DNA of 64,000 bases from an uncultured Fodinibius sp. (GTDB lineage Bacteria > Bacteroidota > Rhodothermia > Balneolales > Balneolaceae), in the NCBI GenBank assembly GCA_913057775.1, contig CAJXOG010000001.1, positions 62,001 to 126,000 on the forward strand, read 5' to 3'. A program made the position numbers and the translations under genes. Below are positions 41,156-45,289 of the stretch, piece after piece; within the stretch, counting starts at the first letter, position 1, and each line of letters opens with the position of its first letter. The notes below the pieces were generated by a model. The model worked only from the letters and a program-made list of their open reading frames with translations. It made no database searches and was not told where the DNA came from.

Positions 41156-41186
41156 AAAGGTACAACACTATTCATGTTGTACCTTT
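41156..41186 (-). terminator. Intrinsic terminator of the amidohydrolase operon
   Basis: A perfect 12-bp stem: AAAGGTACAACA (41156-41167) and TGTTGTACCTTT (41175-41186) around a seven-base loop. Read on the minus strand it is followed by TTTATTTT, as expected of a rho-independent terminator just after the last amidohydrolase gene (ends 41210). Confidence 0.85.
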
Positions 41187-41209: not shown

Positions 41210-42526
41210 TCAGTTTGTTTTTGCCCCCCTATCTAAATACTGCTGGTAGAGCTGTATATGTCGACTCACCATCGGAATTTTATTGCCACGAATAAATACA
41301 TCAGTGATATGGTTCATCGGCTCAAAAGGATCACCATCAGCAATAAATAAGTTTGCCTGTTTGCCTTCTTCAATGCTGCCGAGCTTATCACTTACGCCAA
41401 AAATTTCAGCAGCATTGATCGTAATAGCCTTCAGTGCTTCCTTCTTGCCTAATCCATAGCTGGCTGCAAAACCGGCATGATATGGGGCATTTCGTACATT
41501 TTCGACCCCTCCGGTAGCAATAGCAACTTTTACGCCTGCTGCATGTAACTTGCCAGGATTCTGATAAGGGCGCTGATAATTGTCATAATCACGTTCCGGA
41601 GTATACAGCGTAGAGACCAAGCATGGGAGTCCAGCCTCGGCAATTTCATCAGCCACGCGCCAGCCATCTCTTACGCCAGCCAACACGAACTGCATATCAG
41701 GATAATTCTCTGTCCACTCAATGACATCGAGGATATCATTTTTGGCATCTACCGAAATAATAACCGGTATTTCCCCTTTAACGACTTCTCTCATCGCCTG
41801 CATCTTCTCATCCATATCAGGCTGTTGCTTGTTATTTGGATTATTTTCAAAATCCGTCATCATTTTATCATAGAATTGGGCCCGGGATATAAAATCATTG
41901 AGCTTCTTCAGGTCTTCCTTATACTCTTTTGCAACCTCCTCGTCTGATCGGTCATCCCACCAGCCTCCTTTTTTGGATGTCGGCCAATTTAAGTGCAATC
42001 CCGCATTTGGGCTAACAGCCATTGAATCCGGGGAATAACCATAGAGATCAATGAGTGTGGCCTTGCCTGCCAATCGTCCTGAAACTGGCATAGAAATAAC
42101 ATGCGTCACTCCGTTAACCCTCGTAACAGGAATATTTACGCTGCTTGGATTAATAGCCGTAAAAGCACGCACATGAGGATTAAAATCGCCAAGCTCTGCC
42201 TGGTCATTGGTAACCGCTACGGCTCCAATTTCCTGTAGCCCGAGCTGCGTGCCCGCATCAAAAAATCCCGGATACACATACTTGCCGGAAGCGTCAATCT
42301 GTTCATACTCCGCCGGGATATTGACATCAGATCCCACCTCGACAATTTTCTCACCACGAATCAATACCGTTCCATTTTCGATCACACCATTGGTGACGGT
42401 ATGGACCGTTGCATTGGTGATAGCAAACTTCCCGATTTTAGCTTTCTGAGTAATTTGAGCCTCAGCGCTCATCCCCCAAAAGAGTACCAAGAGACAAGCT
42501 ATAATTGTGCTTTTCAAATAGGTCAT
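41210..42526 (-). CDS. Exported amidohydrolase-fold protein lacking metal ligands (third of the operon)
   Basis: 438 residues from the ATG at 42526, the start of a good signal peptide (ends SAEAQ); longer starts overlap the upstream gene. The composite domain is recognisable (YPGFFDAGTQLG, ATGGVENVRN, ALKAITINAAEIFGVSDKLGSIEEGKQANLFI) but the usual HxH is DAGTQ, the VHTH strand is VIISVDAKND and the late metal Asp is lost in ATGGV. It is therefore unlikely to be a working amidohydrolase. It is the last gene of three related genes; gap to the upstream gene is 29 bp. Confidence 0.85.
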   Translation of the reverse strand: MTYLKSTIIACLLVLFWGMSAEAQITQKAKIGKFAITNATVHTVTNGVIENGTVLIRGEKIVEVGSDVNIPAEYEQIDASGKYVYPGFFDAGTQLGLQEIGAVAVTNDQAELGDFNPHVRAFTAINPSSVNIPVTRVNGVTHVISMPVSGRLAGKATLIDLYGYSPDSMAVSPNAGLHLNWPTSKKGGWWDDRSDEEVAKEYKEDLKKLNDFISRAQFYDKMMTDFENNPNNKQQPDMDEKMQAMREVVKGEIPVIISVDAKNDILDVIEWTENYPDMQFVLAGVRDGWRVADEIAEAGLPCLVSTLYTPERDYDNYQRPYQNPGKLHAAGVKVAIATGGVENVRNAPYHAGFAASYGLGKKEALKAITINAAEIFGVSDKLGSIEEGKQANLFIADGDPFEPMNHITDVFIRGNKIPMVSRHIQLYQQYLDRGAKTN

Positions 42527-42555
42527 AATAATTTCAGTGTCTTTCATTATTTCAA

Positions 42556-43956
42556 TTAATTGCCTTGAAGTTTCATGCCATTCTTGCTGAAACGAATTTC
42601 TGCTCCTCTCAGGCATGTCTCCGAATGACGGCCGTTTTCGTTGTACCACCGACCCGATGCCTCTTCGAAATCCTGTTCAGCATCTACCTTCAATCGCATA
42701 TCATCAGCATCTTCAGCACGGTCAAAATATTTCTTGCCGTCTACATATGTTTTTAGTGTTTTACTGTAGATGCTCAACGGATGACCGTCCCAAATAGCAA
42801 CGTCTCCATGCTTGCCTACTTCTAAAGTTCCCACCTTCTCATCAATCCCCAACTGGGCGGCGGGATTTATCGTAATCATTTTAAGAGCATCCTGTTTTGA
42901 GGTATTGCCGTAATGAACAGCTTTGGAGGCTTCGTGATTTAAGTGACGGATCAGCTCTCCGCTGTCCGAGTTAATACTGTTTTTAACGCCATTGGCATTC
43001 AGGATGGAAGCGTTATAAGCGGTCGAATAGTACACCTCAAACTTGTATGCCCACCAATCGGCAAAGACTGAGGTATAGGCACCATTTTTCTTAAGCTCAG
43101 GTGCTACCTTAAACGCTTCGTTTGCATGCTGAAATGTATAGTCTTCGATACCGTAATCGTTAAAAACGCGCATCAGCATCGTTATTTCATCCGCTCTATA
43201 GGAGTGAGTATGAACAAGAACTTCCCCTTCTAAAATATCCACCAGTACTTCAAGACGCTCATTCTTGGCAACCGGAACGGGCGGTGTGGAGCGAGTGCCA
43301 TCTTCATAGGCCTGTTTAGCATCTAAATATTCTTGGCGGTTTCGCTGATAATCTATAGAAGCATCAAAATGATCACGAATTACCTGTTCAACACCCATGC
43401 GAGTCCGCGGCTGTACGTCAAATCCCTGTCCGTGCACACGCGTTGGATTTTCTCCAAGTGCAAACTTGATGGTTCGAGGGGCACCCTCAAAACGCATCTC
43501 ATTCATGCCCGAACCATAGCGAAGCTTGAGGGTTTCATTCTGTCCACCAATCACATTAGCAGAGCCGTGCATCAAATGGATAGAGGTAACGCCACCGGCC
43601 AACGCCCAATAGATGTTAATATCATTGGGATTGATCGACTCTTCCATCGAAACCTCGGCTGTAACGGGATTGGTCCATTCATTGATGTCCACGCCTGCAA
43701 TATGCGAGTGCGCATCAATAATACCCGGCATCACATACTTTCCGGAGGCATCAACGGTTTCTACGCCACGGGGAGCAGAAATGTCTTCTCCAATTTCAGT
43801 AATTAAACCATCCTCAATTAAGAGATCGGTATTAGACATATTACCGTTGGCAATCGTGATCAGGGTGCCATCTTTGATAAGAACCGATCCCTTTTCCTGA
43901 GCAAAGCCCGTTAGACTAAAACAAAACGTTAGTATTAGTAAAAATAACTTCTTCAT
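42556..43956 (-). CDS. Exported amidohydrolase with intact metal site (middle of the operon)
   Basis: 466 residues from the ATG at 43956 (signal peptide KKLFLLILTFCFSLTGFAQ); a longer frame extends into the upstream gene but is not needed. Metal ligands are present: DAHSH with His83 and His85, VLVHTHS for the third histidine, FQHANE for the fourth and NSDSGE with the catalytic Asp. GKHGDVAIWDGHPLS is the typical end of the imidazolonepropionase-like amidohydrolases. It is predicted to act in the periplasm on an amide or cyclic amide; the substrate is unknown. Confidence 0.9.
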   Translation of the reverse strand: MKKLFLLILTFCFSLTGFAQEKGSVLIKDGTLITIANGNMSNTDLLIEDGLITEIGEDISAPRGVETVDASGKYVMPGIIDAHSHIAGVDINEWTNPVTAEVSMEESINPNDINIYWALAGGVTSIHLMHGSANVIGGQNETLKLRYGSGMNEMRFEGAPRTIKFALGENPTRVHGQGFDVQPRTRMGVEQVIRDHFDASIDYQRNRQEYLDAKQAYEDGTRSTPPVPVAKNERLEVLVDILEGEVLVHTHSYRADEITMLMRVFNDYGIEDYTFQHANEAFKVAPELKKNGAYTSVFADWWAYKFEVYYSTAYNASILNANGVKNSINSDSGELIRHLNHEASKAVHYGNTSKQDALKMITINPAAQLGIDEKVGTLEVGKHGDVAIWDGHPLSIYSKTLKTYVDGKKYFDRAEDADDMRLKVDAEQDFEEASGRWYNENGRHSETCLRGAEIRFSKNGMKLQGN

Positions 43957-43960
43957 AATG

Positions 43961-45289
43961 CTATTCCTCGGAAGATTCTTGTTCAAATTCTGTAAGATTT
44001 CCATCCGTAATAGAGTAAAGAGCCTGAGCCTTTTCCTCCATAAATGGCTTGGTAAATACGGTGAAACTGGCGATACGACCTTCATCAATATTTCCAAGCT
44101 GGTTACTGTAGCCCAGAATGTCGGCCGTTGATTGCGTCAACATTTGTAGTATCTCTTCATCTTCAAGGTCGCCGTCTTCTTTCAGAGTCATGAGATTCTT
44201 ATTGATCTCAGAAAGTTCCAATCCATTTGAAGCAAATCCAACCTTTACCCCGCTATCGATAAGTTTTGCAATATTTTGGATGTCAGCTTTATAGGCTGCT
44301 TCCTGCTTATCTCTGAAAATGCGTATCTCCTCGGTTATTTCTGGCTGATCCTCATCCTCCTCTTCTGATCGCCACTTGGGCTCTTCGGGTAGATCGATAC
44401 TTGCCAATACCGGGATCTCACGCTGTTTCAACTCTTCAGCTTTCTTATAAGCTTCTTTCCCGGATACAATCACTACCTCAAAACCTAGTTCATCCTGTAG
44501 TTGAAATATCCGTTCAATATTCTCTTCGGTGTCTACCACAAAATAGAACGGCTGCTGCTTATCCATCACCGGATACAGCGCTTGGAGCACTTTATTTTGT
44601 TTTGGAGCGGGATAATTCGACGAAACGGAAGCAAAATATTGCTCCTGTTGCTGCAGGGCTTTAGTATCATTAAAAAGCTGCCGCAACTGACTCATGATAC
44701 CCATCGTTGTTGAGGGATAGGCTTGTCCCTGTGCCTCTTCAAACTGGGCCGTCACTCCTACTCCCTGTTCTAACAGTAAATCTTCAGTCTTTTTTCCATT
44801 GATAAAAAACAGGTCAACTTGACCGGGGAGCATCTGTCCTTTTAATCCCAATGCTGCCGTCGTAAATCCTTCTTTAGGAGCCTCAGAAAGAGCTTTACTG
44901 TCGGCTTGTAATAGCTCCGACGGCTTACGTTCGGGTTGAATTCCCGCACGCCCATAACCGGGATTGCCGGGTTCTCCGGGCGTTTCTATGTCTTCATCTA
45001 TATCGGGACTTCCCCAGAGCGCATGGCCGTCAATAAATCCGGGATAGACATGTAAACTATCCCCGCCATCACGAACATAGGCATCAAAGGGAATGTCAAC
45101 ATTTTTGTCGACGTCCGTAATTACGCCATTTCTCCAAACGATCGTTCCCCCTTCAATAGAGTTTCCGTCTGATGTATGGATCGTTACATTTTTAAAAGCC
45201 TCAGCCGGTGACGACTGCGACCATCCCTGTAACGAACACACCATCAGAAAAGCAAAACAAAAAACAATTAAACGAGCTGTTTTCTTCAT
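43961..45289 (-). CDS. Exported amidohydrolase-like protein lacking metal ligands (first of the operon)
   Basis: 442 residues. Signal peptide ends GWSQ. Overall layout matches its two downstream paralogues (ITDVDKNVDIPFDAY...VYPGFIDGHALWGS and STADILGYSNQLGNIDEGRIASFTVF), but the HxH is GHALW, the second His segment is FYFVVDTEEN and the late Asp region is FASNGLELSEINKN. So the zinc ligands are missing and a structural or regulatory role is more likely. The C-terminus is acidic (EFEQESSEE). It ends 4 bp before the middle gene. Confidence 0.82.
   Translation of the reverse strand: MKKTARLIVFCFAFLMVCSLQGWSQSSPAEAFKNVTIHTSDGNSIEGGTIVWRNGVITDVDKNVDIPFDAYVRDGGDSLHVYPGFIDGHALWGSPDIDEDIETPGEPGNPGYGRAGIQPERKPSELLQADSKALSEAPKEGFTTAALGLKGQMLPGQVDLFFINGKKTEDLLLEQGVGVTAQFEEAQGQAYPSTTMGIMSQLRQLFNDTKALQQQEQYFASVSSNYPAPKQNKVLQALYPVMDKQQPFYFVVDTEENIERIFQLQDELGFEVVIVSGKEAYKKAEELKQREIPVLASIDLPEEPKWRSEEEDEDQPEITEEIRIFRDKQEAAYKADIQNIAKLIDSGVKVGFASNGLELSEINKNLMTLKEDGDLEDEEILQMLTQSTADILGYSNQLGNIDEGRIASFTVFTKPFMEEKAQALYSITDGNLTEFEQESSEE

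Follow-up and report, generated by a model that had tools for sequence, protein, structure and literature searches.

Why would a bacterium keep, on either side of one exported amidohydrolase gene with an apparently complete metal site, two relatives of the same layout in which that site is gone? The question is raised by three tandem genes in the window, the whole stretch of 64,000 nucleotides that was analysed, which comes from the 3.1 Mb genome of an uncultured Fodinibius sp.; the nearest named relatives of this genome are Fodinibius/Aliifodinibius and other Balneolaceae. A reading made from the sequence alone had described three same-strand exported genes of amidohydrolase fold and a strong hairpin closing their transcript. 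These elements are all present, and are located as follows:

43961-45289, minus strand: P1, first gene in transcription order; 442 aa, exported, amidohydrolase fold, probable pseudoenzyme
42556-43956, minus strand: P2, middle gene; 466 aa, ATG start, probable catalytic subunit
41210-42526, minus strand: P3, third gene; 438 aa, ATG start, exported, amidohydrolase fold, probable pseudoenzyme
41156-41186, minus strand: intrinsic terminator downstream of P3; hairpin and T-rich tail

P1 and P2 lie 4 bp apart, P2 and P3 29 bp. Each protein carries, by inspection, a signal peptide with a glutamine next after the cleavage site (GWSQ in P1, GFAQ in P2, AEAQ in P3), as has been described for exported Bacteroidetes proteins (PMC5837995). 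A longer TTG-start ORF for P2 was set aside as mechanical and a GTG start at 42649 for P3 would overlap P2, so that ATG was taken for both. The terminator has a 13-bp stem followed by T-rich sequence and a folding z-score of -5.76, and none of 200 shuffled sequences was equally stable. Pairwise identity among the three proteins is about 22-28%, and P1, P2 and P3 are therefore not recent copies of one another.

All three have the amidohydrolase-superfamily fold (PF01979/3OOQ-like). Each scores above the cut-off for Pfam Amidohydro_1 (PF01979), the match spanning the whole domain in P2 and the C-terminal block only in P1 and P3, and each has as its best PDB match 3OOQ, the Thermotoga maritima amidohydrolase TM0814 (E-values of 1.1e-54 for P2, 6.3e-35 for P3 and 1.1e-14 for P1). 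P2 differs from the named amidohydrolase families listed in falling far under their curated cut-offs. The threshold for Xaa-Pro dipeptidase (NF051886, 500 bits) was not reached by P2 (59 bits) or P3 (57 bits), nor was that for imidazolonepropionase HutI (TIGR01224, 298 bits; 51.7 and 50.9 bits, respectively).

The metal ligands were compared in an alignment of 198 domains, which held 56 P1, 56 P2 and 55 P3 domains (those of the window included), representatives of a second gene pair described below, and 3OOQ. Apart from those of the window, the trio domains came from 60 regions of other genomes that carry all or part of the trio, and the survey covers about 55 loci in many Bacteroidota families. 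P2 has a complete binuclear site made up of H83, H85, K164, H251, H277 and D331. This pattern (HxH, Lys, His, His, Asp) is the binuclear amidohydrolase set with a bridging carboxylated lysine position, which corresponds to K164 and is invariant in every P2. All six ligands are found in 55 of the 56 P2 domains, the last being masked at D331, and all six align with ligands in 3OOQ. By sequence, P2 thus has the ligands of a subtype I binuclear member of the superfamily, and it is probably a metal-dependent hydrolase with a carboxylated lysine, related to 3OOQ. We infer metal binding and hydrolytic activity from these residues. The earlier assignment of metal ligands to the middle gene only was borne out, and the motifs quoted for it (DAHSH, VHTHS, FQHAN and NSDSG) are correct. 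The ligand list drawn from those motifs needed amendment, as K164 had been missed and the beta-5 ligand is the second histidine of VHTHS, H251. H249 was rejected for this role because its position is occupied by T, Q or S in many P2 orthologues.

P1 of the window retains one of the six ligands, the first histidine of HxH (in DGHAL), and P3 retains none. The sequences at the ligand motif positions are DGHAL, FYFVVD, VIVSG and FASNG in P1, and DAGTQ, VIISVD, VLAGV and IATGG in P3. At most two of the six ligands occur in any of the 111 P1 and P3 domains (56 and 55, respectively), with partial His/Asp left in some members; the Lys of K164 and the His of H277 are retained in none, which excludes chance or misreading. 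No complete metal site was found among the 56 P1 domains. Misalignment was rejected as a reason for the missing residues, since the same alignment lines up the ligands of P2, of 3OOQ and of B2, the live member of the second pair. P1 and P3 therefore lack the ligands expected of a catalytic amidohydrolase, and the suggestion that the flanking genes encode probable pseudoenzymes, together with the motifs cited for them, agrees with the wider survey. The former active-site positions of P1 show no new consensus. In P3, the polar residues D108, E111, R136 and Y219 are invariant or near-invariant, as is a DxxExG loop (D108, E111, G113) after beta-1. The segment that follows barrel strand 1 shows class-specific conservation, with NE at 92-93 in P2 and a Pro and a Gly nearby in P1.

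Inheritance of the three genes was followed across a phylum sample of 118 genomes. P2 is present in 66 of these, and P1 and P3 accompany it in 65. The exception, G007, has a fused P1-P2 gene with 5,000 masked bases beyond it; a 2531-aa 'giant fusion' in this genome was dismissed as an artefact of reading through the masked bases as an open frame. A further 80 named genome contigs, from Balneolaceae, Rhodothermales, Cyclobacteriaceae, Saprospiraceae and others, carry all three genes in 76 cases, and the other four end at a contig edge where the gene would be expected. Retention of the middle gene alone, the pattern that the sequence-only reading had set against its own proposal of a complex, is thus not what relatives show. 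Junctions between the trio genes are tight across loci, often with 4-bp overlaps. P3 is unlinked yet kept in eight genomes (G023, G027, G043, G059, G086, G101, G105 and G112), in which it lies roughly 1 Mb away or on a different contig. Common descent may account for part of this co-inheritance. The whole trio is absent among the genomes listed for one family, f15 (small genomes of about 2.0-2.8 Mb). Genome G042 has two complete trios (L103 and L112), one with a short P1 of the window's type and the other with a long P1 bearing an extra beta domain.

This domain, about 110 aa long and all-beta, follows P1 in most lineages, whether fused or unfused, and is absent in the lineage of the window; it has no Pfam match. 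In the window's own class P1 and P2 are mostly separate genes. A single ORF of about 1000 aa, in the order P1, beta domain, P2 and usually with P3 next, encodes both in many other families and also in some members of the window's own family; no fusion of P3 to P1 or P2 was seen in the sample. The C-terminus of 20 unfused P1 proteins is the same beta domain (hhalign probability 97.8, E 8.7e-13). An example is given here:

L128:2172-5138, residues about 448-545: beta domain of a fused protein; also present at the C-termini of long P1 proteins, e.g. L106 and L115

That a dead domain and a live one are joined in a single polypeptide argues strongly for joint action of P1 and P2. An AlphaFold2 model of one 988-aa P1-P2 fusion had a pLDDT of 86 and a pTM of 0.83, the latter apparently better than would be expected for two barrels in arbitrary orientation. 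The P2 half of the model superposes on 3OOQ with a Z-score of 42.4 (370 residues, rmsd 2.2), followed by isoaspartyl dipeptidase (Z 23), prolidase-like and other subtype I enzymes (Z about 21-23); the P1 half still resembles amidohydrolases such as allantoinase (Z 22.6).

The same genome holds another pairing of an active and a dead protein:

G000:C6:77051-79635 (locus L159, outside the window): B2/B3 pair, exported proteins of the 3OOQ family

B2 has all six ligands and B3 lacks them. In each of 15 genomes taken for the pair, B2 retains six of six and B3 none or one; the two genes mostly overlap by 4 bp or lie a few bases apart. An unrooted tree of 153 domains places the live P2, B2 and 3OOQ and the dead P1, P3 and B3 on opposite sides of one branch (SH-aLRT 98). 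This topology is compatible with a single ancient division into live and dead proteins that predates the separation of trio and pair, and the long branches and missing root leave room for independent losses. Another locus outside the window (L283, G000:C11:5780-10297) contrasts with the trio in encoding three tandem exported amidohydrolases of about 535 aa, all with HxH.

Retention of the trio in scores of distantly related bacteria suggests that the dead copies are working parts of an enzyme. On balance we favour the explanation that the operon encodes one hetero-oligomeric exported metallohydrolase in which P2 would be the catalytic subunit and P1 and P3 obligate non-catalytic ones. P1 would be the direct partner of P2 and P3 a further partner that completes the oligomer, outside the cytoplasm and probably in the periplasm. 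The fusions and the second pair lend weight to the hetero-oligomer that had been proposed from the window alone; the case for a physical complex is strong for P1 with P2 and weaker for P3. Two points speak against the proposal: the fusions tie only P1 to P2, and 3OOQ, a relative of P2, crystallised as a single chain type. Within such an assembly P2 would probably depend on P1 and P3 to be stable, to close its active site or to be regulated, perhaps by way of the conserved loop that follows barrel strand 1. Modelled alone, P3 is predicted with a pLDDT of 89 and a pTM of 0.86, and 3OOQ is again the best structural match (TM 0.71-0.84); residues 100-107, under pLDDT 50, are the least confident internal part. 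A loop that is conserved yet poorly placed in a monomer model is what would be expected of contact with a missing partner. As the fold neighbours of P2 include isoaspartyl dipeptidases and prolidases, its substrate is probably a small peptide-like compound or a cyclic amide. No conserved neighbouring genes that could hint at the substrate were seen in five 15-kb regions read by eye.

Loss of catalytic residues within a tandem array could also be taken as a sign of decay, with P1 and P3 as duplicates whose removal is pending. However, these proteins are full length and form old clades common to most of the families sampled. In the 153-domain tree, a single branch (SH-aLRT 99-100) sets each of P1, P2 and P3 apart from all other domains, and the basal split within every one of these clades divides the genomes alike, into a fused and an unfused group; the trio therefore predates the fused/unfused division. 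Nei-Gojobori estimates against two congeners, whose trio proteins are 85-95% identical to those of the window, gave dN/dS values of 0.069 and 0.079 for P1, 0.023 and 0.020 for P2, and 0.039 and 0.032 for P3, all approximate because dS is about 1 or more. Neighbouring genes have similar values (0.078 and 0.100 for a nitrilase-like gene, 0.031 and 0.021 for a malic-enzyme-like gene), which indicates no decay in the trio, and no broken trio copies were found in 12 close relatives. Selection on the inactive copies, as the earlier reading had suspected, is thus strong rather than relaxed (dN/dS 0.03-0.08), and we regard pending loss as refuted and scarcely credible.

The same selection, acting on proteins that retain the fold and have lost the metal site, would also fit if P1 and P3 stood outside any oligomer and served the same pathway as separate proteins, for instance by binding the substrate or product in the periplasm and capturing it or handing it on. 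The unlinked P3 genes and the lack of any fused P3 also fit this explanation. It is harder to reconcile with the covalent fusion of P1 to P2 in many families and with the repetition of an active/dead pairing at a second locus; a shared ligand pocket, moreover, predicts a new consensus, and P1 has none where its active site used to be. We consider separate proteins of one pathway rather unlikely. Still less probable is a new catalytic activity, metal-free or dependent on a single metal, in P1, P3 or both. In its favour are the conserved polar residues of P3 and the His/Asp residues that persist in some members. Against it, the bridging lysine and the histidine at 277 have vanished from the entire set of dead domains, the other former ligand positions vary widely, and the conserved residues of P3 adjoin the low-confidence loop, a setting that suggests an interface rather than a rigid catalytic site.

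The hetero-oligomer explanation can be compared with known systems. TM0814 resembles the trio in having every ligand of P2 and in being the closest PDB relative of all three proteins, and differs in that its crystal contains one chain type only and that its metal site is missing from P1 and P3. In the open literature, which included few subscription journals, we found no papers on TM0814/3OOQ, on pseudoenzymes of this family or on this gene arrangement. IadA, prolidase-like and other subtype I amidohydrolases are the next structural neighbours of P2, and we know of no dead paralogous partners in these families. A dead paralogue is the obligate partner of an active one in the alpha/beta mitochondrial processing peptidase and other M16 pairs; their fold and chemistry are unrelated to those of the trio, which has two dead partners per active subunit. 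Within the amidohydrolase superfamily, the aspartate transcarbamoylase (ATCase) of Pseudomonas aeruginosa requires an inactive pseudo-dihydroorotase for activity and stability, and with complex formation the melting point goes up by some 30 degrees (PMC7053772). The likeness is an inactive amidohydrolase-superfamily chain needed by a partner enzyme. In Pseudomonas, however, that partner is an unrelated, cytoplasmic transcarbamoylase, whereas in the exported trio the presumed partner of the two dead chains is their live paralogue; no transcarbamoylase was seen among the genes adjacent to the trio, read by eye. Dead amidohydrolase chains as obligate partners thus have a precedent, from which an exported set with two dead paralogues of a live enzyme is different.

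A bolder and only tentative extension is that these proteins belong to a class of exported amidohydrolases, found throughout the phylum, whose members function solely as heteromers. Two dead paralogues would complete or gate a single live active site, for example through the loop conserved after strand 1, and the heteromeric arrangement would be older than the split between trio and pair. Exported amidohydrolases of this type are common across environmental Bacteroidota, where generic amidohydrolase domains would lead to their annotation gene by gene. If two in every three serve the third as non-catalytic subunits, annotation of that sort misleads, and single-gene assays would either fail or give misleading results. 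The separate, fused and unlinked genes, together with the second pair, would form a clean natural series in which to trace how an enzyme comes to need its dead paralogues.
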